From the NCBI GenBank assembly GCA_030248195.1, contig JASAND010005316.1, forward strand, positions 19,746 to 83,745: a stretch of 64,000 bases of DNA, in the 5' to 3' direction. Each line of letters opens with the position of its first letter. Positions within the stretch are counted from its first letter, which is position 1. This DNA comes from Trissonchulus latispiculum. Lineage: Eukaryota > Nematoda > Enoplea > Enoplida > Ironidae. Shown piece by piece: positions 17,265 through 43,778 of the stretch. A model generated the notes under the pieces. It had not been told where the DNA came from and searched no databases. It saw nothing but the letters and a program-made list of their open reading frames with translations. A program made the translations under genes and the position numbers.

Positions 17265-20200
17265 CATCTCCAATGGAAGCTGCCTTGCCGCGGTGGAGAT
17301 GCTTACAGCCTCTGGCTTACCAAATGGTTTCCCCTTTCGGGCTGCCCCTGGTTTGGGAGGCCGCATATCCTCCTTGGACCCCTACGGCGGGACAGCCAAT
17401 CTGCTACCCCCCTCCAGCCGTGTTTTTCTCAGCCGGCGAGGCAAACCAGCCTACCTCGCCCGGCTGCTGCTGATGGGTGGAGACCATACGTGTGCTTGGG
17501 GGGGGTTGGTGGGTTTCCACCCCCCCAGACCTGAGCTCACCCCCCCAGAGGGGTCCCTCACCCCCCCCCCCCAGAATCCGGATTTTTCCGGTATAAAACC
17601 TGAAAAATCCGGGTTTTCGGCGGCCTTCGGCCGCCCTTCACCCCCCCCCAGAACTTCCCTTCCTGCACATGTCTGGTGGAGACGTTTAACCAAACCCCGG
17701 TCCACTATGGCCTTGCGCAGTCCGCGGTTTCAGACGGGGACTGCTTCAGCGGACTCTAGACGATTTTCGGTGCAATCGCTGAACCAGACCTGATTACTCC
17801 CAGGCTCCTACTCCCCTCCTACCACCTACCTCAGTGATACATACCCCAGCCCCGCGTGCAGTAAGGCCTGGCCCGAACTCCACCATGTCATCCAACACTA
17901 CAGGCTCCGCCAGTCGTCGTGGGGAAAACGCTCACCGGCCCCGCAGCGAGCTCAGATTCTTGCAGTGGAACGCGAGAGCTCTCTCTTCCGCCAAAAGGCT
18001 TTTCCTCCGGAAAATCCTGGAGGAAGAACAGATCGATGTTGCCGCTATTCAGGAAACCTGGTTAACAGAAGGAGACCATTTGCGACTCCCAGACTTCAAC
18101 GAAGAGCACTGATACAGGAAACGGGACTGGCGACTGACTACCCAAAAGCCCGTCGGGGGCGGTACCGCCCTGCTCGTGCGGAAGGGCATCGACTATCTGC
18201 GTTGCGACACTCCACTGACTGCGACTTCGGACGACTCCACTGACGGCGCTGCGGTGCGACTTCAAGTAAACGGGAACCTTATACCAGTCACCTCCGTGTA
18301 CCTACCTCAGGTCGTCCGCACGATCATCATCCGCGGACGACCAGCGCTCCCAGTCCTTCGACCCTGGACCCCTCCCCAACACCAGCAGCACTATCCTTTT
18401 GGACGACTTCAATGCCCATAGTATACTCTGGGATCCATTCCAACCGGCCAACAGCATAGGCGAGGATCTGGAGGACTGGATCACTGCGAACAATTTGGTG
18501 GTCGTCAACTCTGGAATCACAACTAAAGCTACAGCCCAGTCGGTGCCAGACCTGACGGTTCTGGGGAACAGATTGGATGGAAAGTTTGTATGGTCATTGC
18601 TCGAAGATACAGTCTCCGACCATATACCCATCTGCATACGCCTGAACTACGTCACCAGCCACAGAAATCAGAAGAACTACAACTGCGCTACAACTTCAGA
18701 AAAGCTGACTGGGCTAAATTCCGGAAATTTCTGGACGACCAGCTGTCCCTTCGCCTACCGCCTGAAGAAGAACAAACTGCACACAACCTGATGTCCGCCA
18801 TCTCAGCATCCTTCCAAGTAGCCGCGATGGCTGCAATTCCGAAAAACCGCCGGAAGGACGCCAACGCATTCTGGTGCCCTGAACTCAGTGACCAGGCAAG
18901 GCTGTGCAGGAACCTGCAAAAGCAGACAAACACGATGAACAGGCGAAACGGCAATGGACTGTTGAGAACCGGAAGCTGCGGGAGATGATCGTTGCTGCCA
19001 AACGCGAGGAGCGGAGGAATTTTGCATCCGGACTGAGCCTACGGTCAGATCCGGCCAAGGTAATGAGGACGATTCAAAGTATTGACGGAAAATGCTCCAA
19101 TGACTCCAGTGGTGCCATCATCAAATCCGGAAGGCATCTGCTCACGGATGCCGCAAAAGCATAAGCTTTTGCTACGGATTATGCCGCAGGCAGCCGGACG
19201 AACCCGCGCCGGGATGCAGTTATCATTAAGAGAAGAAACAGATCACTGCTGAAGAACCCGTGTCCCTGCGGCATGCCGGAACAAAGCATCTGCAGCCCCT
19301 TCTCACCTTCGGAGCTGGAATCAGCCATCTCGTGCCTTAGAACTAAGAAGGCGCCGGGCATGGATAACGAAGTCACAAATGAAATGATCAGGAACTCAAC
19401 GCCGCTATACAGGAAATCCCTCCTCAGGCTATTCAACCGTTCCTGGACCCACAGCGAAATCCCAGCCTCCTGGAAAAAGGCAATCGTGGTTCCCATTCTC
19501 AAAAAGGGGAAACAGGCTGAGTTGATCAGTTCATATCGCCTGATCAGCCTGACCCCTACTATATCCAAACTCATGGAGTCGATGATCAAACGGCGTCTCC
19601 AATATTTCCTCGAATCGAGGAACTTCTTCACTCCAGCGCAAGCTGGATTCAAGATCGGAGCCTGCACTGAAGACCAGGTGCTCAGGCTCTCACAATCAGG
19701 CGTCGACGGATTTTCCAACCAGAGGAAGGCCAAACGAACTGCATTAGCTCTCATCGACTTTTCTCGTGCCTTCGACACCGTGTGGAAAGACGGGCTCATT
19801 AATAAACTAATTAGATCTGGCCTGCCTACTTGCACTGTCAAATGGATTCATCAGTTTCTGGTGGAGCGGAGGGCATGTGTGAAAATTGGAAGAAACCGCA
19901 GCAGTTTCCGGGATATGCATCAAGGGGTCCCTCAGGGTAGCGGCCTGTCACCCCTCCTCTTCATCATCTACATCAACGATATACTGGACAGAATGCATGA
20001 GGGAGTGCCCGCCTCACTATTTGCGGACGACCTAGCCCTCTGGACACAAGATGAAGAGGAACTGCTCCAGTCAGCCCTGAATGTCTTCCACAGATGGTCC
20101 ACGACGTGGCATATGCAGGTCAATGTGGCAAAATTCGAAACGATTGCCTTCACACACACTGCAGAAGCCAAACGCCGTCTCAGCCTCGATTTCAACGGAG

Positions 20201-21615
20201 AACCGATCCCTTGTCGGGACACTGTCACCTTTCTCTGTGCCACCTTTGACCGCCTCCCCAACTTCGGACCGCATGTCACAAACCTCAAAGCAAAGCTGAC
20301 CTCTCGGATGCGCGTGCTGTCGTCCCTGTCTGAGAAGGACTGGGGGGGGGGACTGACCAAAGAGGATCTCAGGACCGTCTACGCCACTTTCGTCCGATCT
20401 GCTCTTGAATACTGTGTGGGGCCTCAATGCAACCTCCACCCACACCTTGCACGGCAGAAATGATACAGAACAGGGCGTGTCGACTGATCACTGGTTGCCA
20501 CAGTGCGTCCCCTCTTGAAGCCCTGCAAATGGAAGCAGGGATAATGCCACTCAAACTCCGGATACGGTTTCTGGCAGCGAAATCGTATGAAAAAAACCAG
20601 CGCCAGCCAGAAAACAGCCACCAGTTACGGACAATCCAACCGCCGGCCGGCCGCCAACGAACTCTCAAATCCCAGCCGAGCTGGCGATCCAGGGCGCCGG
20701 CAACCTCTGAACTCACCGCACTAAATAGACTCCCAAGAGAACATCTGTGCAGACTTCCTTCATGCCTCCCTGGCGACAATCAGCACATCTCGTTACCGAT
20801 GACTCACTCCGGCTCACATGCCCTAAGGACGTGCCTCCAATGGAGAAGAAGAAAGCTGCACAGGAATACTTGACCAGGTTACCACCGGCAGACTATATCC
20901 TATGGACAGATGGACTATGGACAGAGACCAAAACCGTTCGCATCTGCACTGACTCTCTGTCTACGGTGCAGCGGTTTGCTTCTGGTCCTAGAACTATGTG
21001 CACGCGAACCGAATCTGACATCTGGGCCTCCCTCAACTGGTTGTCGTCATTTGGGATCAACTTCTCTATAGTCTGGCTGCCCAGCCACTGTGGAATCTAC
21101 GGTAATGAGCGAGCTGACCATCTAGCCCGCAACGGTGCCCAGATGCGGCAGGAAGCGGTTCCTGTCGACTACGACACAGCTGTGGCTGTTACCAGGATCT
21201 CGGAGTGGTATTCAGATCTTTCCCATACACGCTCCAAATCCATCTACTGGGATAAGGGCCCAGTTCCGGCTAAATCAGAAGGTGGTCTCCTGAAATTGGA
21301 ACGAACTATGCTATCCCAAGTGCGATCTGGGAAGTGCCTGCTGCTGGCGCACTACCGACACCAGGTCAATCCCACCCTCTACCCATCTCCCCTCTGCCCA
21401 GACTGTCTCCATGATGAGTAAACACTGGAACATCTTCTCATGGAGTGCCCTGCTAAAGATAATCCCAGGAGGCTCCACCTTGACTGCAGCAATGGATTGG
21501 CTGTCCTCTGGGAATCCCCAAGGGGAGTTGCGGACTTCCTAAGGGGTACCGAAAGTCTCTAGTCCGGCTATATGGATTCGCTCCACCAGGCCACACCGAT
21601 GACAATGATGATGAT
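17265..21615 (+). mobile_element. I-like non-LTR retrotransposon (LINE), decayed, with TSD
   Basis: The element is flanked by GAAGATTACAAA at 17252-17263 and 21616-21627, and its 3' end is a short GAT-repeat tail (21603-21615). It is GC-richer than its surroundings. The order is a GC-rich 5' region, apurinic endonuclease, reverse transcriptase, RNase H and a terminal CCHC-like motif, as in the I superfamily. It is inserted in the left arm of the 16425-27742 element. The clear duplication and near full length suggest a fairly recent insertion, although the coding part is already broken. Confidence 0.9.
17834..21562 (+). pseudogene. LINE ORF2 polyprotein: endonuclease, RT, RNase H (broken)
   Basis: The endonuclease part (from about 17955) shows the LQWNAR start, IQETWL and, further on, DDFNAHS and SDHIPI, the usual APE-type motifs. 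The RT part (open 19273-20463) shows KKAPGMD, LIDFSRAFDTVW, HQGVPQGSGLSPLLF and the catalytic FADD. The RNase H part has WTDG (about 20900), CTDSLS and WLPSHCGIYGNERAD. The sequence between the first two RNase H motifs is much shorter than normal, so it has an internal deletion. A CPDCLHDE...H...C knuckle ends the protein. Frameshifts near 18110, 18400, 18600, 20450 and 20750, plus stops at about 19162 and 21419, inactivate it. I found no separate ORF1 protein. Confidence 0.9.
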
Positions 21616-29370: not shown

Positions 29371-32264
29371 TTAATTCACAGTGTAATTTAATTCAATCAA
29401 TACATGACCATACGCAAATGAATGGATACCATCTTCAAGTATATAACGTTGGTCATCATATGCGCTTAATCCTATCTTACACCACTGTACTGTAGTCAGT
29501 TGATGACGTCTCCTATCTATACTGCTCATGATGTGCCCAGTTCTACCCCCATGCATCAATATTCGCTTATAGTCTTCATGCCTCAGTCTATCTGACCTAT
29601 TAAGTCCTTTTGCCGCTGTAATATCATCAAATTCGCACTTTTTGCTGTACATCTTTACTCTTAATACTACAAATTCACTAATTGGCTTACCCTTAACTTC
29701 ATCCTTCATCTTGCCTAGCACCTTCTTGTTAACGCTGCTATAAAGTGGGTGGTCCTCAGGGTAGTTACTGGTGTCAAATAGGTCAATGACCTCTCTCATA
29801 TCCTGGTAAATGTCAGGGGTTGTCACATGGTAGCAAAAGCTGTCCGTATCTGTGTACAGTAAGCTAACCCTATCTCCATACTTCTCCCTCATGTAGTTAT
29901 AGTGAAAGTTGTACATGAGGTATTTTGATAGTTCAAGTACGGTGAATCCTACATATACGCTTTTACATAGCTTAACTGTACGTTTCTGCACCTGCACTGC
30001 TACCAGGTCTTCTGAAAATGCCCCACATGCCTTGTACCTAGGGTTTGCAGCTAACTTCTCAAACTTCTCTGGGCTGGTGACTAGTCTCACATCCAAGGTC
30101 TTCTTCAAACTTACTTTTCGCCTCTGCCCTCTTAACCATATTCAACTCTATGTATGGCTTCATCCACGCCTCCTCATCAAAGGACACCTCTCTATGTATC
30201 TTCCTAAGCACTAACCCTTGATCTATGTATTGCACTAGGGTATGCTTGTGTATGATGTAACGAGTCTTGTTGCGTAAATTAGGTACTAACTTCTGACACC
30301 GCATGTACCCTCCTTGCTCCTTACTGTACGGTGATATCATTTCTTCACCAATGGTAATTCTCTCAGGTGCCAGTGGGTAGTCATTGTGGGCGTTGTGTAG
30401 ATGCAGTGGGTAGTCAAGGTCGACTTCAAGGATTCATGGAACGTCTTGCCGTCGCTCCAAGTTGGTCATACACCAAAAGTTGCGCACGGGGAGTTTCTGG
30501 ACCATTGACCAACCATATAGATTGTTCATGTCCATGTATGTTATATAAGAGGTTGGCTGCTTAGGATCATACCTGTCTAACAGTGGGTTATTGGCCTTTG
30601 CGTTTTACGTACCGTTGGGCAACCACTGCCACCCCACCTCTAATTCCATCTTCAAAAAACAAAATACAGGCGTCCCAGGCAAATGAAGGTAGAGTACAAT
30701 AGTGGCAAGGATCAAAGCCATATGTTTTCAGGCTAGTCAAGCGAAAGTTCTCTACCACATCTGCCAGTAGTAGGACATCTGTTCTCAAGTATTCATCATG
30801 ATACTGTCCCATATTTTCTATACCTAGCTCATGCCACACAGTCTTTGCATGCTCGTAGTCTCGGATACCAATGTCGCTATCTGTCAATGTGCTGTGGAAG
30901 GCATCAATGGGTGGTAACTGAGTCTCAATAAATCAATCCCACAAGTCCATGTACTCATAAGGGTAAACTCCCTTTCTTCTCATCAGTGACACTGGATGTA
31001 AATGTAAAGTCTTCATCAGTCAGTCCGTCTGCCAGTGTATCTAATGATCTATTCAGCAACTGGTAACTGTCGATGAACCTAATACACCACTCCTGTTCGA
31101 CATTCAGTTCAAAACAAAGGTAGTCTTCTAATCCCTTTGGTACACAGGTGATGTCTAACTTAAACTCCTTACTGATCTCCCAACCTCTTGCATAATCCGG
31201 TGCCCATCGTATCGTCTCAGGTTATGGAACATTGTAGTCACTGTCCGACCCAGTTTATAGCCACAAATGTGACAATGGTCTCGGGTTGATTCCCCATTTG
31301 CAATCGTGCCATGATATAGGTGACATTCAGTGCAATGCTGAAGGAGTCGCTTGGGTAAACGTGGGTATTTCTTTAGTCGTTCCTGATACTGCTGACCTTT
31401 CAGTAGAATGGCTCTCAGGAATTGTTGCACTGCGTCCTCCGCACGATAAATCAACGGTTCACCTCGGGCAACAGGCATTCCCTCACAACACTGGAGCACA
31501 TCTACTAACCCAAATGCATATGGTCTGTGACTCTCATACATATTCGTATACGAGGAGAACGGGTTGGGTTGACAAGTATTTATCTTTTCTAGTAAACACT
31601 CAAAATCTGCGTAAATTACATCAAGTCGCATTAAACGCCTATGATCATTCTGAAATTTTAGTTTAGTGGACGATGGCATTACTGTTATCTGTAAATCTAA
31701 TGTAAACTCTAATTCATATTCATAGAATTCATATTGTTGATACTTGACCACTCTATTCGCATAATCTTTCATCGGATGGAGGCCTGCCAGGATACTCCAC
31801 ATGAAGCATTTATTGTCAGTATTCTTCGTTTTGATGATTGCCTTCTTTGCTGTGAGACTCTTCGGCAAAGGTGCGTATGTTGATCCAAATAGTGGGCGAT
31901 ATTTAGCCAGGTGAATATCCAGGTATTGCACATGATCGATCAGCCATCCTGATCTATTGCGTTGGGATTCTTCGATGTTCGTGAGGATGCGGTTGATCAT
32001 GGAGTTCATAGGCACATTTTCACCAGGAATAATGTTGGTCTGTTTTCTGGCAAAATAGCTGCTCATCGTTTCGTTGGTAATCTCGTTGATGACTAGAATG
32101 TGCAGCCTCAATTGCATCTTCAAAGCTCGATCACCAATAAGGTTTTGAATAGCTTTGGTGCAGTCCAATAGGAACTCTTTAGGATCATTGGTTGACTCAT
32201 CTGGTGTTATACGGTACCAACGATCGTACCCACGCAAAGTCGCCGCTTGACGCTGCAAAGTCAT
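29371..32264 (-). pseudogene. Protein-primed DNA polymerase B (Polinton pPolB), broken
   Basis: This is the element's replicative polymerase. From the N-terminus, NTDNKCFMWSILAGLHP leads to the exonuclease motif YADFECLLEK and a zinc-ribbon-like CTEC...CHICG. NLRRYDGHRIMQE follows, then the DEYLRTDVLLLADV exonuclease III region, polymerase motif A (YMDMNNLYGWSM, ~30520) and motif C YTDTDS (~29840). Breaks: frame changes near 31150, 30930, 30600 (an extra base next to the AKANN equivalent), 30440 and 30095. There are also deletions, one of which removes the motif B (KLMNNSxFG) segment near 30095, and others shorten the zinc and palm regions. The product cannot be an active polymerase. The start was chosen at the ATG at 32264. 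The PolB identification is firm. Confidence 0.9.
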
Positions 32265-32523
32265 TATCAATACTGAATAACTGTACTGAATAACATGTGT
32301 GATACCCTACTTATTACCACAAAAAATTTGAATTCATTATTTAGCAAATCACGAAGCAACAAACAACAAACTACATTTACCGGTAATCATGAAGTTAGCT
32401 GTACATCTGTTTGAAAAAAGTTGACATTTCAAAATTGTGATATTACAAAAGGCTGCTTTTATAAATTTACGTTTTGCATAAAGTTACACGAAATATACAA
32501 GACATTACAATAGGCAAATATAT

Positions 32524-33631: not shown

Positions 33632-33937
33632 CTATATTGCCTTGCCTCTGTTCTCCAGCAGGCGTCCAATGGCTGCCTTACCATGTCGTTTGGGTGATTC
33701 CTTAGGATATTCACATCGTCGAGTAATCGCGAGCCACACCTCCTGCCGTCTGAAAGTGCTGCCTGCCTCTAGACCGACAAGACGTCCTGCTGGCCAAATA
33801 AAACGTCCAATTCCTCTCAAGAGGCTACGCAAGCCATCTCCTCTCTGATACCTTTGGCCGGCGTAAAAACCAGACCCTCTCCGTATCAGGTGGAATTGCC
33901 AGTCTTCAAATGTTTTAGGATGATACCTTGTCCTCAT
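33632..33937 (-). CDS. Small basic Polinton virion protein (adenovirus pX/pVI-like style)
   Basis: A 101-codon ORF from the ATG at 33937 has a Gly/Arg-rich RGSGFYAGQRYQRGDG start and a hydrophobic GIGRFIWPAGRLVG segment. A basic tail with KESPKRHGKAAIGRLLEN follows. This layout (GxGFYxGxRYQRG, hydrophobic helix, lysine-rich tail) is common in Polinton small core or membrane-active proteins next to the penton-like gene. The middle may contain compensating frame changes, because WLAITRRCEY does not read like the rest. Its 5' end overlaps the preceding capsid gene by 23 bases. Function by position and composition only. Confidence 0.5.
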   Translation of the reverse strand: MRTRYHPKTFEDWQFHLIRRGSGFYAGQRYQRGDGLRSLLRGIGRFIWPAGRLVGLEAGSTFRRQEVWLAITRRCEYPKESPKRHGKAAIGRLLENRGKAI

Positions 33938-34680
33938 CTTTCTTAAAGTGTAACTTGATAACTATACTACCATATTCAAACTGTACACTCCTGCCAATGT
34001 GATTGTTTATATGGACTTTAATGCTATTGACCACGTGTTTATTCACAGGGACGTAGCGAGGTTGAGGAAAGTACTGAATGGTGTCCCCAGATTCTTCACC
34101 CGCCTTTACTACTGTCAGCAGGTTACCGCTAGTTGTGCCTATAAGTTGTTCTTTCACGATGTCACAATGGACTTGAAGGTAGTGAAAGTTAAGACTTGGT
34201 GGACGTTGTGCGTAAAACTTCTTTATCCTCAGGGCATCTCTTCCACTGGCTGGTTCTACAGTAAATTTCTGAGAGTCAAAGCCAAGTATGCGTACGATGG
34301 TAGGAGCAAATTGGACAAACTCAAAGTTGGGTCTTTCAAGGTGTTCTGGATTCTCGTATAGGTCCAGGTAGACTCGATCCTTTTCCTGATCATAGACGAA
34401 ACTTATAGGAGGTGATTCCTGACGTTCATTAAGAATTGACTGCATGGTAACGTTGATGGCGTTTAGCAGGTCATGGAGGCTATAGTATCTCCGCCTGGGT
34501 ATATTACCAACTGCTCCCTCGTTTAATTAATTTTAGTTTCCCAGAATTAATGCCCTTCCAAGTGTGAGGATAGATAAAGTCAACCATTGCAACAGACCAC
34601 CTGCCATGTAGATGCAAAGGGTGAGCTAGCTGGTTTTCAAAGGTGCCTTCCTTTCCGGTGAGATATAGGTAGAAACTCAT
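33915..34680 (-). pseudogene. Polinton minor capsid (penton-like) protein, copy 2
   Basis: It starts MSFYLYLTGKEG at 34680, with HPLHLHGRWSVAMVDFIYPHTW early. This is the conserved opening of the Polinton penton-like jelly-roll protein (FYLxLxS...L.G.W.VaL.e..yP.TW). After a frame change near 34480 it continues to the stop at 33915. The C-terminal part (HVVNSIKVHINNHIGRSVQF then IVIKLHFK) parallels the end of copy 1. The reading frame at its start is continuous with copy 1, with no stop between. It lies directly downstream of copy 1 and overlaps the small basic protein. Confidence 0.75.
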
Positions 34681-35433
34681 CTTCGCTTCCGGCCGGAAGT
34701 GTAACTTTGCAAAGACCTTTCCGTACTTAAAGCTTACCGCCTTACCATGATCATCCTTTGTATGTATTTCAATACTATCAGATTCTTTTCTTAGCACAGG
34801 TATATAGTGTGGGTTATTGTATATTCGATCAATAATATCGTTATGCTTACCGTCGATACTGACAACACGAATGATTGGCTCGATGGCATTTCCTATCATT
34901 TGCGGTGCTACCACGTCACAGTACATGTAGAGGAGTAGAGTCCACCCCTCAGGTCAGGTGCAGTAGGGGCCACTGCGTATCTGCGTGGTGAGACTGTCTT
35001 TCCTTTGGTACGACCTTAGTATCTGAATATCCGAGCATATACTTTCGATGTTTACTGAAGTGTAACGCCTTAAAGTCCGGTTCTTCGTCTAGGGTAGTTG
35101 GTTTAAGTCCGACACGTCTATGAAGTTCATCATAGGCCAGTTCACAGTAGATCTTCTTTGTTAGTTCAAGGGTATAGTTGATGGCATCACATAGTCGAAA
35201 TATTGACTCATAGTTATCCAGTGGGATGTGCCCGTGGTATGTCTTCTTGCCAACTGTCACTCCAAGCTTTGCGTCATCCTTGTTTCCTACGTTGAACCAG
35301 GTGACAGGATATTCGAGCTCTACAAGTGCCACTTTCCATTCACCCTCGAGGTCAACACGGTGGAGAAGCCTGACTTGGAAATTGGGTAGTTTGTTCGTTG
35401 CATAGTCTTCTGTATTGCTGGGTAGGTACAGGT
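34681..35433 (-). pseudogene. Polinton minor capsid (penton-like) protein, copy 1
   Basis: It opens RFYLYLPSNTEDY (near 35435), then DLEGEWKVALVELEYPVTWF, the hallmark of this family. The middle (35332-34949) and the C-terminal part (34926-34681, ending KVFAKLHFR) are in different frames, so at least one frameshift lies near 34940. The upstream frame runs without a stop from the integrase chromodomain, so the usual gene boundary is blurred. Side by side with copy 2 it indicates an old tandem duplication of the penton-like gene. Confidence 0.75.
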
Positions 35434-35454
35434 AAAATCTATTGTCTTCAGTTA

Positions 35455-36481
35455 TCCAACTATTGAACTTGTCCGGGTATCCAAGCCACTTGACAAAATA
35501 CTCTTTTGACCCTTACGCCGCCTGGTTTTTATTACCTTTTCCAGGCAATTAGTGTCTGGTTCGTCAACCTGTCGTATTTCTGGTTGGTAGAAACCACCAA
35601 TCACCTCTTCGCCACCATAGTCTTACAGGAGGTACATAGGTGGGTCACCTGTAATGACATTTCTGATACAGAATAACTCTTCTGACCACTTAGGGAGGAA
35701 GAATTTGTCAAAGAGACCCTTTGTTTTGCTAATACGGACCATATTTCCCTTCTTTAATACTGGCTGGGATGTTTTTTCTCCACGGGATGCACGTCTACCA
35801 TATAGTGCCCTGTTAACCAGTTCCATATTTTCAGGCCTCGATGCCTCTACTGGCGTCATACGGATGTTCCTGTGGCGAGCATTGTTGTAGGCTTTCACGA
35901 GTTGAGGAAGGTCGTCAATATACCTATGCGATATGGTCTTTGTAAAGTATTTTCATATCTTTGTCTTAATAGTACGATTAAAACGCTCAACGAAGCTACA
36001 CTTGATCACTGGACTATTGCATGTATAAAAGTTGATGTGATTGGCTTTTAGGAGTGATTGGAAATCTTTATTTAAAAATTCTTTGCCTCTGTCTGACTGT
36101 AGGTGGTGTGGTCTACTGCCATCTGCCAGTATTTTACGAAAAGCTCTAGTCATATCTTGACCACCCTTGCTTTTAACTGGGATCACCCATGCGCACTTGG
36201 AGAAGGCGTCAATACAGTTGAACAGGTACTTGTAGCCATCATTCTTGTCTGCTATCAATACCATATCTGCCAGGTCTGTTTGCCATAGGTCGTCAATACC
36301 TACCACCCGATACCTCGCCGTTGGGAATCTGTGTCTAACTGGTTTATGGATGCTGTAAGTGTACTGTTTTTCCAGCCAATTAGTGACTTCGGACCTCGAG
36401 ATTCCGTATCTTTTCGCCTCCTGATACACGCGATTAACACCGCCAAATGCTGCAGGACTTTGCGGGTCATAGTAAATCTTC
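35455..36481 (-). pseudogene. Retrovirus-like integrase with chromodomain (Polinton INT), broken
   Basis: The enzyme inserts Polinton DNA. YYDPQSPAAFGGVNRVYQEAK begins the protein. The catalytic triad is visible as WQTDLADM (Asp), LQSDRGKEF (Asp) and FVERFNRT (Glu) at about 36270, 36085 and 35985. The C-terminal chromodomain (EKVIKTRRRKG, then EYFVKWLGYPDKFNSW in another frame) lies at about 35470-35540. Breaks: a TGA right after RTIKTKI near 35952, stops and frame changes at about 35625 and 35505, and a 1.23-kb TTAA-type element inserted at its N-terminus (36486). All three catalytic residues survive. Confidence 0.88.
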
Positions 36482-36485
36482 TTAA

Positions 36486-37718
36486 GGGGGGGTCCACCAT
36501 GAAAAATTTTATGGTCACGGATTTTGCTCATTTTCCCACAAAACTTTGTCACATATGTCCTGCATATCGAGTTTCAATTTCGAGTAGTTTCGTTCAGTAC
36601 TTAACGAGTAACCGGCTATTAATTGCATGCAATTTGAAAACAGGTGAAAACGGCGGTGCCGCAGCAAATAAAGGCACTTTACACCTGAACTTCCTTGAGA
36701 ATGGAGCTATATTCGGTTGTATGTTTGATATCTGATGCAAACAAAAAACTTAGGGTAGCTTTTACTGGGAAAACGTTTCTTTATGACTTTATTTAGTGAT
36801 TTTAGGAAGTAGCACCGACACTGGAAAGCCTTGACCTCGAAGAAAATCATTTAACGGCCGATAACTTGAATTTGGTGCATTTGCGGGCAATGGTCCAAGA
36901 AGTAATGTTCCCGACAATGAGTGCCTTCGATTGATATAAAATTTAACGTATTTCGAAAAATTTGAAAAATCGCTATTTTTGAGATTATGGTTGTCAGACC
37001 CCCATATTTGGCCCCAGCGACCAACTGGGTGCACTAACCTGCGCCATTTGTGCCCAATCTTGACCTAAAGTCATCAATAATCGTGCGCAAATAGGTAGTC
37101 TAATATTTTATAGGTCTGTGTTGCCATAGCTCTAGGTTATCTGCCAAAAAACGGGAACTTCCTACAATTTGCTAAAAATTGAGATTTCTGCGCCAGAGAA
37201 TTCTCGAAACCGGACAGAGGAAAGCAGGATCAATTGGTATCGTTCGAAATGTCTTGTCATGAGCTGTGATTTGTAGGAAGTAGAATTTTTAATTAGGGCT
37301 TACAGCTTTCAGAATATTTCATCAAACTTGCTGACCCCCAATTTTAACATTGCAAAACAGTCAAATTTGGCTGTTCGCAAACTTAAAAAATTAATTAAAA
37401 ATTTTTAAAGGCCTAAATTAAAATTCTGCTTCCTACAAATCACCCTTCGAGATCGTTTATATGATACAGAATGGACGTTGAAGTGCTCCATCTTGTCGTT
37501 GGCAGGATTTCTCTGGCGCACGGAAAAAATCACCACTTTTTCCGTTTCCTATGTTTAACACATACTGACATCAACTTTGAGGTGAAATTACTTGCTAACC
37601 GTAAGAGATCCGACCTTCATTTCAAAAACTCGTTAAAATATACCAATCGGACAACAAAATGTGTGAAAATGAGTAAAATCGGAGATGGTCGAAAAATCGG
37701 CCAAAAATGGACCCCCCC
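36486..37718. mobile_element. TTAA-flanked element inserted in the Polinton integrase
   Basis: TTAA is duplicated at 36482-36485 and 37719-37722. The ends are GGGGGGTCCAC and the near inverse ATGGACCCCCCC. Interior blocks (TTTTCCGTTTCCTATGTTTAACAC type; CGGAGATGGTCGAAAAATC at the end) match the elements at 51113 and 52827. ORFs on both strands inside lack domains. The insertion postdates the Polinton. Confidence 0.85.
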
Positions 37719-38399: not shown

Positions 38400-39073
38400 A
38401 TCCATGATTATTCTTCCTTATATTGTCAGTTTTTATGGAATATACGTCGGCATAAGGATCATCAGGGAAAATATGCCCTCGAAGGCGGAGTGTTTCTGGT
38501 GTGTTCTGGTCTAGGTCTATCAGTAGATATCCGTGCGGTCGACTAGTGCTCAAAAGCCTCCATAGACGCTTTCACCCTACCTGGATACATTTTCCTTGCC
38601 AAGTTCATCGGGGTTAGCTTATCGGCAGGAATTTTCATGAGGACAATGCACTGACTAGTTATCTTATTAGTCCGCTGCCTGTCGTAGAAGATGTCTTGAG
38701 TGATATTGATGACACTACAGGACCAATGGTGACAAGTGAAAAGTGAAGTTGTACAAAAAGGAGTGAAAAGTTGTACAAGATTTGGTTGCTGCTTGATTTC
38801 ACTCATTAGATCATCAAGGACTACCAATTTTGCGACTGGGGCTTTTAGTTTCTTTAGATTCGGTAGACCTTTGACAAATTTCACCTGAGGTAGATTATCA
38901 TATGCATCTTGCCACTCAGTATAACACCAAATAATCTTATCCGGATGCTCTGACATCATTTCATTTGCATGCTCTACCAGTCGAGACACAAATGTGGTCT
39001 TTTCTGCCTTTGTTGGAGCCGCCACGATACATGTGAACGGATGCTGAAATCTTGGTGTCCTAACCTTCTCCAT
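38400..39073 (-). pseudogene. A32/FtsK-HerA-type genome packaging ATPase (Polinton ATP), degraded
   Basis: In this lineage the ATPase pumps DNA into capsids. From the ATG at 39073 it reads TCIVAAPTKAEKTTFVSRL, a Walker A in which the usual glycines are replaced (GPTGSGKT-like to APTKAEKT). The Walker B is KLVVLDDLMSE (near 38825). Further on, SVINITQDIFYD and ARKMYPG are the family's conserved later motifs. A frame change near 38548 separates the C-terminal GYLLIDLDQNTPETLRLRG part. The altered P-loop and frameshift argue against activity. Confidence 0.8.
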
Positions 39074-39235
39074 CCTTACTCGGAAAACACAAACGCTGTT
39101 TATATGACTTTGTACAACAGTGCACCGATCATCGAGTAACAAGTATATATATAATTCATTATAGTGTCATATTTTCTTGACTCCTATGTTTTCTTTCTTC
39201 ACTGTTGAATCATCATAACGTATCATGGTCATTCT

Positions 39236-39587: not shown

Positions 39588-40113
39588 CTAGGCAAAAAGT
39601 TGTCTCGTTGTATGTGAACGTGTATGGACACGGTAGTGATCCTCGATATAGAATGGGCAGTGGAAGTTTAGACAATTGTATATAAATTGTCGGATCTCAT
39701 GAAAACTATTAAGTAATACAAGGTGCTCAGTCCAACCATTGTGAGTAAAGATGGCATTGTCTACCGTGACGGAGTCCTTCAGTGGTGGTAGTTTACACTG
39801 TTCATGCTGTGACAACAAAATCGCTAATACAATCGTAGACAATAAAAATTTTATGAGAAGGCTTGTGATTATACAGGGAACTCTTTTGACCAATTGGAGT
39901 TTCGTATAGTTTAATGAGGAATGCCCTTCTCGGGAATTTGCACCAGTAGCCATAGTCAGGGTCTTGTACGGCACACTTTAACAATAATTCTATGCGCTTC
40001 TTATTACCATAGAACTTTGATGCTGTCTTTGTATTAGCCCTACTACCATGCTTTTTATAGACGTGAGGGGGTACCTTAGTGTTCCAAATTAATAAGGAGA
40101 CAGAGGATACCAA
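39588..40113 (-). pseudogene. Unidentified Polinton ORF, two overlapping frames
   Basis: Two minus-strand ORFs (39802-40113 and 39588-39974) overlap. The first half (KVPPHVYKKHGSRANTKTAS, then LLLKCAVQDPDYGYWCKFPR) and the second half (KDSVTVDNAIFTHNGWTEHL to the stop at 39588) look like one protein broken by a frameshift near 39850. I do not recognise it and see no double-jelly-roll major capsid signature. Its 5' end is head-to-head with the TBP-like ORF on the plus strand, so the two could share a promoter region near 40.1 kb. Confidence 0.4.
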
Positions 40114-40123
40114 GGGGGTAACA

Positions 40124-40574
40124 ATGATTGTTGATGTTCTTCTCAGTGGATGCTTTGACAGGGAACTTCACTTAACGAACATTCCCAACAATAGACTCTA
40201 TCGTGGATTTATTGGCGGTAGACTGAAGCACGGGGAAGGGACTTTCCAATTATTCACCAGCGGTAGTTTTGTTTGCCTCGGATATTTGCCTAGCTAATCA
40301 GTGTATTCGTCAACTAGCTGGCGCTCTTAATGTCGGTATTCTTCGCGAAGGCAAAGTGGTGAACCTGGTGGGATCCTTCTCAGTTGGCAGGTATATGGAC
40401 CTAAGGGATTTATATGAAAGTATCAGACATACCCATCAAGTTTGCTATGAACCAGAGCTTTTTAATGGTCTCATCTGCAAGATTGCCAAAGTCACTGCAC
40501 TCATTTTCCACACTGGCCAGGTCATATTGACTGGCGCTCGGAGTGAGTCTGCCCTATCAGATGCAAGGTCTTAG
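40124..40574 (+). pseudogene. TATA-binding-protein-like ORF (two TBP repeats, one frameshift)
   Basis: TBP binds the TATA box as a saddle of two repeats. The first repeat (40124-40290) reads ELHLTNIPNNRLYRGFIGGR then FQLFTSGSFVCLG, matching the TBP pattern ldL..ia...Y....ggvi.R...liF.SGk.vctGa. The second (40350-40555) is stronger: VVNLVGSFSV, then CYEPELFNGLICKI and ALIFHTGQVILTGA. These match the N.VGS, YePELFpGLIyr and liFssGkivlTGak signatures. A +1 frame change near 40285 splits the repeats. The protein is far more divergent than animal TBPs, which are highly conserved, so it is not a recent host retrocopy. It lies inside the Polinton on the strand opposite the core genes. The GTG at 40079 also leads the frame; 40124 is the first ATG. 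The fold call is confident, function unknown. Confidence 0.72.
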
Positions 40575-40623
40575 TTAATAAGAAGATGATAAGGTTTGCA
40601 GTTAAACTTTAGCCTGGTGGATC

Positions 40624-41046
40624 TTGTCTGACCGAAGCCTGTCGAACGAACTGTTACAAAAGGCCCTGCGACAAAGCCCGCCTATTCGCGTAGAGATTAC
40701 GGGTCATTATGCTGCAGTCATGGTTATAGGTAGTGAGACTTGGACGAGCTCACAATGCCCTGACCCACGTACTGCCATTGAGGAAGTTTCTCGTAAAGCC
40801 TACGGCACGTTATGTCACGGCGGCGAACATCTGATCAGACGTGAATGCGGATTACCACCAAGATCTCATATCTACGAAATTGATGCAGTCAGGGATAAGA
40901 TGAGGGACCTACGTGAATATAATAGATATCGCAGAAGTATTCAACCTATCTACAATATGCTAGACAGGCTAGAACCAGAAATGCTTAAAAATCCGTTTTT
41001 CGTGGTTGACTGCCTACCTTATACTTTATACCAACAGTGCATCTAA
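40624..41046 (+). CDS. Unidentified 140-aa ORF downstream of the TBP-like ORF
   Basis: An open frame (no ATG at its start) follows the TBP-like ORF by 50 bp. The first half, with RVEITGHYAAVMVIGSETW then DPRTAIEEVSRKAYGTL, loosely recalls a double-stranded RNA-binding fold (beta-beta then A-rich helix), but key residues are missing. The second half is charged and helical (RDKMRDLREYNRYRRS) and ends in PYTLYQQCI. It may be the C-terminal part of the TBP-like protein after another frameshift, or a separate gene. No function assigned. Confidence 0.4.
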   Translation: MSDRSLSNELLQKALRQSPPIRVEITGHYAAVMVIGSETWTSSQCPDPRTAIEEVSRKAYGTLCHGGEHLIRRECGLPPRSHIYEIDAVRDKMRDLREYNRYRRSIQPIYNMLDRLEPEMLKNPFFVVDCLPYTLYQQCI

Positions 41047-41049
41047 TGT

Positions 41050-41555
41050 TATTCGTAACATTTCGTTTACTGTACATTATACAATGGTTTACAGCATACC
41101 TGGGCAGACTTTTTCTCTGACTGGGGTGGAAATCCGGTGCGTTTTCCACAAAACAGGTACTGCATGTTTTGGTGCGTAATTTGAGACCACAAGCTTTCAT
41201 TTGATAAGAAAAATAACACTGTGAATAGTCGATTGTCTACTTACAGTAGGCTGTAGTCATTCAATTATTTAACCTAAAGGTATGGAAACTAAATATTAAC
41301 CTCTTCAAAGTAACTACGTGGGGTGTGTGGGGCGGAGTCCCCCAGAAGTTGAAGAATTTTTGCTGTTAAGACTCCTCCCAGGAATTAATTTAGAGCATTT
41401 CCGCGATCAATGAAGTAGTTTTTGGAATATTGTATATATTACGCATTTTCAACGGCTAAATTTGAAAGGCTCGCAGACATCTGCCTTTACGCTAATAAAA
41501 TATTAGCTTGTCAGCTATCGTAACAGTCAGCAATGAGTAAGAATACAGACAGGCG
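41050..41555. other. Polinton spacer, no gene recognised
   Basis: No convincing ORF or RNA. A GTGGGGTGTGTGGGGCGGAG run lies near 41315. Confidence 0.35.
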
Positions 41556-41559
41556 TGAC

Positions 41560-42140
41560 CTGGGGACATTTTCATAAAACTTTAAACTTGCAACTTGCAT
41601 ATGCAAGTTGCAACTTGCATGTGCAAGTTACAAGTAAAGTGTTTCATAAACCCTCCAGTGGTACTTGCGTACTTGCACATGTACTGCAAGTTGCAAGTTG
41701 TCCGTTAACACTTGCGGTCAGAATCTGTTTCATAAAAATCGCCAATGCATGCACTTGCAACATGCACTTGCGGTGCAAGTGGTTGAGTGAATTTTCACTG
41801 AACAATTGGAACAAAAACTGTTATAATTTAGTTTAATTTTCATATTTTTGAAAAATTTTATGACAATTCTTTTTATCATCATTTAATACAACGCGAATTT
41901 CAAACAATTTTTCTAATATTTGGAATTTATATGAATTTTCAATTATTTTTGGTTATTTTATTAAAGATCAGCATCTTGCAAACTTGCGCTTACAAGTTGT
42001 CAAGTCTTGCAACTTGCTTAGCTAATTTCCGCAAGTAGCAGGAAAAGTTTATGAAACACTGATAACTTGAACTTGAAGTTCAAGTGCAAGTGAAAGTTCA
42101 AGTGCAAGTTCAAGTTGCAAGATTTTTATGAAATTGGCCG
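41560..42140. mobile_element. Foldback MITE built from CTTGCAAGTTGCAA motifs
   Basis: The ends are ...TTTTCATAAAACTTTAAACTT on the left and an inverted match, GTTGCAAGATTTTTATGAAA, on the right. The arms iterate ACTTGCAAGT-like 10-bp motifs. The AT-rich centre (41800-41980) is unpaired. Same construction as 458-1100 and 57169-57853 with a different motif. Exact borders and target duplication are unclear. Confidence 0.65.
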
Positions 42141-42519
42141 CTGGAGTTGTAGTCCGCCCCCAGTAGAAAGTTTTCAAAAATATCACGTTTGAAACACAAT
42201 TTTTCCAGCAATCTTTGCACAATGTTCTTTTGGCTCAAGCTTAAATTAAACTGTGTCAGACTTGCTTCAATTGCAATTGCTTGCAATTGCGTCACACGAA
42301 AAAATTGCTTATTGACGCAGCCCCTAATGCAGAAATATGATCGAGAACCACAGCTAAAAGCTAAAGCTTTTTGGAATATGAAAGGTTTGTAACCTATTTT
42401 TTCAGACGACTTTAACTAAAATTTCCCCATTTTTTTCTATGTATTTGTTGTGTAAATTTGTTCTTCACTGTGCAGTCTGATTTTCTGTGAAAATAATCAA
42501 TATTTGGCACAAAAATTCG

Positions 42520-42945
42520 GTGCGTCGGTAAGCCAAATTCGGCGCGTGAGTAGGCCAAATCAGGAGCGTCAGTAGGCTGAAACCGGTGCGTCAGTCGGGC
42601 AAATCCGGTGAGCAGTTTGACCAGAAACAGAGAGTGTAGATATTCAAAGGAAATTCAGTGCGTCGGTGGGTCAAATCGTGTGCGTAGACGGAATAAACTC
42701 GATGCGTCAATGACCACATCTGGTGCGTAGTTAGATCAAATCAGATCCGTACTTGCGTGCTAACAAATTTGGTGTGTAGACAAGTCAAATATGTGTGGAG
42801 CTGAAGAATCTAATGTGTAGAATCAGATGCGTAAATAAGTCAAATTTGGCTCCGTATTCAAGTCTTCATAAAATCATGTAGGTATCATTTTGGTGCGTAA
42901 GTTGTTCGAAAAAATCACATAGGTATCATTTCGGTGCGTATGTGG
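42520..42945. repeat. Degenerate ~24-bp tandem repeat (GGTGCGT...CAAAT)
   Basis: More than a dozen drifting units on the pattern GGTGCGTCAGTAGGCCAAAT, all in the same direction; the last two (near 42870-42945) share CATGTAGGTATCATTT-type text. Confidence 0.7.
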
Positions 42946-43297
42946 GACCTGGGGTGGCCACCCCCCGTCCACCCCCCCCCCCCCATTGCCCAGACGTGGA
43001 TACAGTGATTATGCAATACTACACTGTTATTCAATAATAATGGTTAACAGTGTTATGCAATATGCAATAATGATAATAATAGAAATAATAATAGTCAATG
43101 GTGTTAATATGCAATTGTTAGTGGTCTTTGCATTCCTGGTGATTCCATTGGGATACAAACCATTCCGGCACATTCCATTGTTTCACCATAGAATTTCCAA
43201 TCCATTCGATGAATACGACGGCCCGGTTGTCGCATCCCAAGGGTCCAAGGGCCACCGTTGCGTCCGGTCTCGCTGCTTGTACCGTAGGGAAGGTGTC

Positions 43298-43778
43298 CTA
43301 GCTTTCTCTTAGCAAATATTTGCTCTTTGTGTAAATCTTCCACGTGACTCCTTTCTCCTTCGTTCCTCCTTCGAATAGTTTGGCTAGGTTGTACTGCTTC
43401 GATTGGACCAAGGCCTCGTGAAGCACTATATCTTTACTCCGCTTTAGTCGCAGTAGGAGATCAAACACTCCATCGTATCTTGTTTCGGAGTTGATGATAT
43501 CTCGATAATCCGGGGTTATGCGCCGATGTTCAACCATGTAGTCTGCCACTGGAGCGGGATCCATTTCATCACAAAGAATAACCAAATTGTCTATGATTTT
43601 CTCCACAGATGGTGAACCTGAAACATTTCAGCATCAAATAATGCTAGAAGATAAAATGATTAAAATATATAATAGCTAGAATATATTAGTTAAAATGTAA
43701 TGATTAAAAATACAACGGATAAAAACACAACTTTTAAAATGTTAGAATTAAAATCTTACCGGTTTCAACGGAATTCAT
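43298..43778 (-). CDS. CARD-only protein, two exons, inside the Polinton
   Basis: Exon 1 (43778-43760) codes MNSVET plus one base and ends at a GTAAGA donor. Exon 2 starts at 43617 after a TTTCAG acceptor and is open to a TAG at 43298, about 113 residues in all. Residues ~10-90 fit the six-helix CARD pattern: LVILCDEMDPAPVADYMVE, RRITPDYRDIINSETRYDGV, FDLLLRLKRSKDIVLHEAL and LAKLFEG. CARDs mediate homotypic assembly in apoptosis and innate immune signalling; a CARD alone often acts as a decoy or regulator. It lies within the Polinton borders, 0.8 kb from the right terminal repeat, and on the strand of the core genes. Unlike them its coding sequence is unbroken. Alternatives: part of a larger spliced gene, or a death-fold relative other than CARD. 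Confidence 0.65.

Follow-up and report, generated by a model that had tools for sequence, protein, structure and literature searches.

TATA-binding protein as a gene under selection in a set of nematode Polinton lineages

Polintons are regarded as standing near the root of many DNA viruses of eukaryotes, and little on their transcription was found in the literature searched. A locus in the nematode Trissonchulus latispiculum raises a direct question: does a Polinton carry a gene for a TATA-binding protein (TBP), and would that protein serve the element's own promoters? The locus belongs to a 64,000-nucleotide stretch of contig JASAND010005316.1 (the window, from whose first letter its coordinates are counted), in which a Polinton-borne TBP-like gene had been predicted from the letters alone. 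The finding is real and larger than that original prediction described: TBP is a gene under selection in a set of Polinton lineages.

The window copy and its Polinton

The TBP signal of the window is divided between two frames:

40124..40294, + strand: start and first repeat of the TBP-like gene (frame open 40067-40294; ATG at 40124, the start chosen in the original prediction)
40227..40571, + strand: second repeat of the TBP-like gene, in a different frame (PF00352 match at about 40353-40565)

The second repeat matches the TBP family profile, PF00352, with an E-value of 2.1e-17 and 63.2 bits (curated cut-off, 22.9). Compared with the PDB by phmmer, it finds 35 distinct sequences with E-values of 0.001 or lower, the strongest at 7e-17; their names mark them as TBP/TFIID chains or TBP fusions, with the single exception of the ECU04_1440 protein. 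Chance as the source of the TBP signal is ruled out by the profile scores. The first repeat, searched alone, reaches PF00352 only at E 0.19, under the cut-off, and aligns well in relatives of the same TBP family. The predicted pair of half-repeats in order is therefore upheld for the second repeat and for the relatives, which have both, whereas the window's first repeat falls short by itself.

Two frame changes, one separating the repeats and one close to the C-terminus, keep 40124-40574 from being one open frame, and the window copy could not make a full TBP. Open relatives (L018, L020, L021, L025, and L027) share 63-87% identity with the first-repeat part and 76-92% with the second-repeat part. 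The neighbourhood contains the following features:

29371-30138 and 31155-32306, - strand: PolB-like fragments (52-53% identity to ORFs in L014 and L022)
33915..35512, - strand: two penton-like (minor capsid) genes, in pieces (similar to L018, L020, L021, L025, and L027)
frame 34949-35512, - strand: chromodomain end of the integrase (PF00385, E 5e-6)
35953..36573, - strand: integrase core (rve; PF00665, E 4.5e-14)
38543..39166, - strand: packaging-ATPase-like ORF (related ORFs in 17 of 19 non-host loci)
39588..40167, - strand: two overlapping ORFs adjoining TBP (39588-39977 and 39802-40167; kept in L018, L020, L021, L025, and L027)
40090..40096, + strand: TAATAAG, 34 bases 5' of the TBP ATG
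40576..40582, + strand: TAATAAG, preceding the next + strand ORF
40606..41043, + strand: ORF after TBP in lineage A, without a Pfam name (conserved in L018, L020, L025, L027, and L058)
41095..43039, no strand: about 1.9 kb of extra DNA in the window copy (absent at the matching place in L018, L020, L025, and L058)
43298..43627, - strand: element ORF, perhaps CARD-like (relatives in L010, L018, L020, L025, and L027)

The TBP gene indeed lies on the strand opposite the Polinton core genes, as had been noted: the integrase, chromodomain, PolB-like, penton-like, and ATPase-like ORFs are all on the - strand. Pfam backs the names integrase, chromodomain, NADAR, CARD, and TBP, and weakly the PolB, protease, and capsid names. 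The labels ATPase-like, penton-like, MCP-like, pVI-like, pX-like, and TM are ones we assume from place and look. Thus we take 38543..39166 to be packaging-ATPase-like from a P-loop-like stretch and its place (a Pfam scan gave nothing above cut-off), and 33915..35512 to be presumably penton-like; the L021 relative matches the ORF of the classic-type Polinton L063 (E 1e-22). The PolB-like fragments are also similar to L023 1-2142, which scores just under the cut-off of PF03175 (E 9.7e-5; 21.9 bits, cut-off 25.8). Judged by homology only, the window element includes a DNA polymerase B of the protein-primed type.

The Pfam scan gave nothing above cut-off for the two overlapping ORFs, and no match for the ORF after TBP in the window, L057, or L058; in L018, TAATAAG stands 67 bases 5' of the ATG of the ORF that follows TBP. 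The ORF at 43298-43627 has no Pfam match of its own, and its L058 relative reaches CARD at E 0.11, under the cut-off; its relatives fall in lineages A and B (defined below). Separately, a lineage B element carries a CARD-domain gene (L013 2521-3057, E 3.7e-7).

The window copy is decayed. Long terminal inverted repeats were looked for around the element and none was recognised; a second excess, of about 1.2-1.3 kb, lies near 36.5-37.8 kb relative to L018, L020, L021, L025, and L027. Neither MCP nor protease was recognised in the window element, where the ATPase-like and penton-like ORFs are present by homology. The relative L056 has matches to a protease (PF00770, E 5.5e-4) and a double jelly roll (E 0.0071), both under cut-off. 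Elsewhere in the window, 19165-20463 encloses a 432-aa ORF that by eye resembles a non-LTR reverse transcriptase.

Five lineages of TBP-bearing Polintons

The genome of the window (733.8 Mb in 21,732 contigs) was searched with PF00352. All 150 candidates scored, of 1,271 from a first look, exceed the curated cut-off. The host TBP is a gene with an intron on contig C14517, and its two exons score best (7.5e-30 and 8.1e-28); by eye, a host exon is animal-looking. At least 148 non-host matches lie on 132 contigs, the window's included, among the 150 scored of 1,271 candidates, certain genes being counted twice with one match per repeat. Nineteen non-host loci were opened at 6.5-9.9 kb, and all 19 contain Polinton hallmark genes, each locus having one or more ORFs that resemble Polinton genes of the window. 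Far from being absent in related Polintons, the gene is found in Polintons at every one of these 19 loci, and a one-off acquisition by the window element is ruled out by the many TBP-bearing Polinton loci in the same genome.

PF00352 is found in all ten full-length element TBPs scanned. The L022 protein contains two PF00352 stretches, and the tandem repeat order is also seen in the alignment of relatives; a profile made from element TBPs finds PDB TBPs over the full length (E 1e-33). Shorter stretches were added: L050-L054 (lineage E), L056 beside protease-like and capsid-like ORFs, and lineage A neighbours in L057 and L058. L055 and eleven 0.6-kb pieces, L039-L049, come without gene context. 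On another, nuclear-looking contig (G000:C17523:28493-29676; L059, L060) there is a mitochondrial COX1 copy in pieces, in which by eye TGA reads as Trp and AAA as Lys.

The element TBPs sort into five lineages, for which the names A to E are coined here and which differ in gene order:

Lineage A (window, L018, L020, L021, L025, L027, L057, L058): TBP between two overlapping ORFs and an unnamed ORF, opposite the core genes
Lineage B (L009-L013, L015, L016): one direction, in the order integrase, TBP, penton-like, MCP-like, ATPase-like, as far as the loci reach
Lineage C (L014, L017, L019, L022, L024): PolB, integrase, ATPase-like, NADAR, TBP, penton-like, MCP-like (composite of five loci)
Lineage D (L026, L055, L056): TBP directly after the protease-like gene (L056), beside PolB (L026)
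Lineage E (L023, L050-L054): TBP and penton-like protein in one open frame

Between lineages, TBP identity is about 30%. The shared frame of lineage E encodes 400-407 aa in L023 (4804-6024) and L050-L053, and 310 aa in L054, and occurs in two divergent sublineages. For its second part, the stand-alone penton-like ORF of lineage B is a homologue (blastp E 3e-32 to 2e-18), and the penton-like ORFs of A, C, and L063 match it more weakly. A Met opens this penton-like part, so an internal start or cleavage is possible, and the open frame need not imply one protein. TBP stands directly 5' of the penton-like gene in L013 and L011 (B) and in L014 and L019 (C), and in L013 the two frames are in register with one stop codon between them. 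TBP is apart from the penton-like gene in the A and D loci read. Elements of lineages B, C, and D also carry a NADAR-domain gene (L013 9453-9899, L014 4021-4575, and L026 8031-8768; E 1e-30 to 2e-40); a literature search joining Polinton with NADAR found no paper among those covered.

TBP as a general Polinton gene is unsupported. Two loci, L063 and L064, which we take from their gene set to be classic Polintons/Mavericks, hold the common set of genes over a span of 8 kb: integrase, ATPase-like, protease-like, MCP-like, and penton-like. They differ from the TBP-bearing elements in that the element-TBP profile finds nothing at E <= 10 in the 8 kb of each. A third control, L062, has a PolB end followed by other sequence. 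Moreover, none of the 77 contigs with the best PF03175 scores (of 935 candidates) is among the 192 contigs with listed TBP matches.

Where the gene came from was addressed with two trees. The second, of 52 proteins, includes 19 element TBPs of lineages A-E and TBPs of six viral contigs; viral row L036 was left out of it, as were 14 of the 33 element rows, these being near-copies or partial. Among ten viral loci, L033, L037, and L038 were used in neither tree, and of 42 database proteins those named here are the ones included. The 19 element TBPs and seven short database TBPs (P0001, P0017-P0019, P0021-P0023) group together with support of 82/85, to the exclusion of host TBP, the TBPs of other eukaryotes, and those of the six viral contigs. 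The seven, on contigs of about 1.0-2.1 kb, we infer to be Polinton genes as well. The first tree (32 rows) has a split, supported at 93/83, that places P0001 and P0005 with the elements; the second gives the placement of P0005 no support (70/9.9). Lineages A-E as the sole clade, without the database proteins, are absent from the best tree, yet the test does not reject that grouping (p 0.33). Long branches occur in several places.

Constrained trees that put host TBP in one group with A (p 1e-4), C (p 0.004), or B+E (p 0.009) are rejected, and a copy or retrocopy of host TBP does not account for the gene. The gene is no near copy of the host's own TBP, and its divergence had rightly been judged too great for a recent retrocopy. 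Outside the genome, IMG/VR gave no relatives of element TBP with alignments A2 and A5 or protein P0005, PHROGs gave no match to the three element TBPs searched, and the window's second repeat as sole query matched no database protein.

Selection, contact residues, and promoter-like motifs

A search with a lineage C TBP, in which 150 of 768 candidates were scored, finds at least 53 copies that cover 165 or more of the 178 residues with an identity no lower than 74%; of these 53, 49 are free of internal stops. Pairwise dN/dS within lineage C has a median of 0.13 and a range of 0.07-0.41, at a median dS of 0.78 (14 rows, 90 pairs; L044 is the same gene as L017). Lineage A gives much the same values: median 0.13, range 0.08-0.45, median dS 0.51 (6 rows, 14 pairs). 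The top ratios come from very close pairs. In lineages A and C, purifying selection acts on the element TBP.

Thirty-three element TBP rows were aligned with host TBP for a check of residues, with the usual roles of the Asn, the kinking Phe, and the TFIIB-contact Glu residues assumed. The minor-groove Asn of repeat 2 is present in all 33 rows. Kink residue Phe116 is kept in 32 of 33 rows, and Phe207 in 30 of the 31 rows without a gap there. Phe99 is kept in 26 of 33; seven lineage A rows have Tyr, where the alignment is unsure. Phe190 is found in 22 of 33 rows, with one Tyr; lineages B and E, which lack this fourth kink Phe, have eight gaps and two Lys. The TFIIB-contact residue Glu188 is kept in 28 rows and Glu186 in 15 of the 33. 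This pattern fits a DNA-bending TBP, and the changes in some lineages could alter its specificity.

TATA-like words recur tens of bases 5' of many element genes and differ by lineage. Repeated words of this kind came to light in the 100 bases 5' of gene starts. With motif words chosen by eye after looking and with copies within one lineage being related, single representatives of lineages A and B have TAATAAG 5' of 11 of 44 genes (one in 20,468 nt of gene interiors), and those of lineage C have TATAAAAG 5' of 5 of 18 genes (one in 7,290 nt of gene interiors). The TBP-less L063 and L064 have TATATAAG 5' of 3 of 17 genes (none in 9,578 nt of gene interiors). Over 21 loci, TATAAAAG precedes 12 of 41 lineage C genes and none of 157 others; TAATAAG precedes 27 of the 116 genes in A and B together, 1 of 10 in E, and none in D (14), C (41), or the TBP-less loci (17).

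Lineage B was counted at seven loci in the 75 bases 5' of starts. The word [TC]AATAAG lies 33-62 bases 5' of integrase (6 of 6), penton-like (6 of 6), ATPase-like (4 of 4), pVI-like (3 of 3), and TM (2 of 2) genes: 21 of 21 starts for these five gene kinds. It precedes MCP-like genes in 1 of 4 cases and pX-like (0/4) and NADAR (0/3) genes in none, making 22 of 32 for all non-TBP genes scored. TBP starts have it in 0 of 7 cases and have TATAWA in 7 of 7. TATAWA overlaps integrase coding sequence, and it also precedes 3 of 6 penton-like and 1 of 2 TM starts. Where the motif lies over the ends of upstream genes its codon register varies (it reads as Asn-Lys, Ile-Arg, Ile-Ser, or a stop), a point in favour of selection at the DNA level.

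A blind shuffle test of eight TBP-bearing sets was significant for L011 (a 6-mer reached in 0 of 200 shuffles; a 7-mer at p 0.005) and gave one 7-mer for L018 (p 0.04); it was not significant for L013, L022, L019, L023, L026+L056, and L021, nor for the TBP-less L063 and L064. In a test set beforehand on a new lineage E stretch, TAATAA[AG] stood before 1 of 4 genes (2 of 4 counting CAATAAG), and two further sense occurrences lay inside genes. TATA[AT]A has no sense bias outside lineage C. Across the 64-kb window as a whole TAATAAG is not enriched (20 found, 16.0 expected).

A candidate promoter system

These observations suggest a model in which a TBP encoded by the Polinton lineage probably directs host RNA polymerase II to element promoters through TATA-like motifs. 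TBP would be made from the element and would bind a TATA-like core a few tens of bases 5' of element genes, of the TAATAAG type in lineages A and B and TATAAAAG in lineage C. It would bend this core as TBP does and recruit TFIIB and RNA polymerase II from the host. Host TBP may make the element TBP first in lineage B, where the TBP gene is without the element motif and is preceded by a canonical TATA-like site; element TBP would then switch on the integrase, capsid, and packaging genes. DNA binding, use of the host polymerase, and the early/late order are what we infer. The original prediction of an element-supplied promoter-recognition factor is strengthened by the purifying selection, the DNA-contact residues, and the TATA-like motifs, and keeps its conditional form. 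Its mechanism is rated slightly lower because TATAWA precedes some non-TBP genes of lineage B and because the lineage E motif test failed. A wider proposal is doubtful: that this animal Polinton clade runs a private two-step programme, from host TBP to element TBP to the integration, capsid, and packaging genes behind a lineage-specific TATA variant, with TBP and motif co-diverging; and that where TBP is built into a penton-like capsid protein, in one lineage, the particle could bring the factor to the next cell.

The element protein could also act on the host, competing for TFIIB and other factors and shifting host transcription, with host TBP reading the element motifs. Conservation of Glu188 would suit such a role, and TBP-less Polintons have TATA-like words too, TATATAAG among them, so host TBP can serve Polintons. 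However, TAATAAG is no canonical TATA box, the motif varies with TBP lineage, and in lineage B it spares the TBP gene; action on the host is unlikely. It is quite improbable that TBP has mainly a structural or particle role, as a DNA-bending protein that travels with the penton-like protein and works during packaging or once a cell has been entered. The A and D loci, with TBP away from the penton-like gene, speak against it, as does the Met that opens the penton-like part of the E frame and permits an internal start or cleavage. Such a role would account for the single open frame in L023 and L050-L054, across two divergent sublineages, and for the adjacency of the two genes in four B and C loci.

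A recent capture or retrocopy of host TBP, kept as passenger DNA, is scarcely credible. In its favour, the element homologue shows no visible introns, in contrast to the host gene. The purifying selection on element TBP, the low identity between lineages, and the trees all oppose it, the last unless long branches mislead the model. The promoter system outlined above is the preferred reading.

Known viruses offer partial parallels. In beta- and gamma-herpesviruses, late genes are read by a viral TBP-like protein that binds a TATT variant (PMC4893493); BcRF1 (EBV) and ORF24 (KSHV, MHV-68) are likewise virus-coded, TBP-like, and tied to a non-canonical TATA variant and host RNA polymerase II (PMC4893493, PMC12529657). 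The herpesvirus mimic acts in a complex of several viral proteins, whereas the element TBP is shorter, matches PF00352 directly, and belongs to an integrating Polinton. The likeness is functional only, drawn from descriptions and not from sequences, and the element TBP is not classed as a member of that group. Mirusviruses, also eukaryotic DNA viruses with TBP (in 59% of genomes, according to PMC10132985), are large viruses of another realm. Nucleocytoviricota such as African swine fever virus (PMC7458399) similarly encode eukaryote-like initiation factors but also their own RNA polymerase; the part of the element ORFs scanned gave no Pfam match to RNA polymerase or TFIIB. Repeat elements with heliorhodopsin in the Cymbomonas genome, of putative mirusvirus origin, sporadically include TBP genes (PMC10675990). 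A literature search joining Polinton/Maverick with TBP/TATA, in a collection with few subscription papers, listed no title on a Polinton TBP, and the terms TATA and TBP are absent from the main text of three Polinton/adintovirus papers (PMC11071308, PMC11071296, PMC10120064).

If true, Polintons with a TBP and matching motifs of their own would possess a dedicated promoter system, one that parallels the late-gene strategy of herpesviruses independently. A TBP-capsid fusion, if true, would be an unusual way of carrying a transcription factor. Moreover, these elements offer many open copies under selection, in which TBPs that have diverged stand next to different motifs, so that a co-evolution of TBP with its TATA sites becomes testable.
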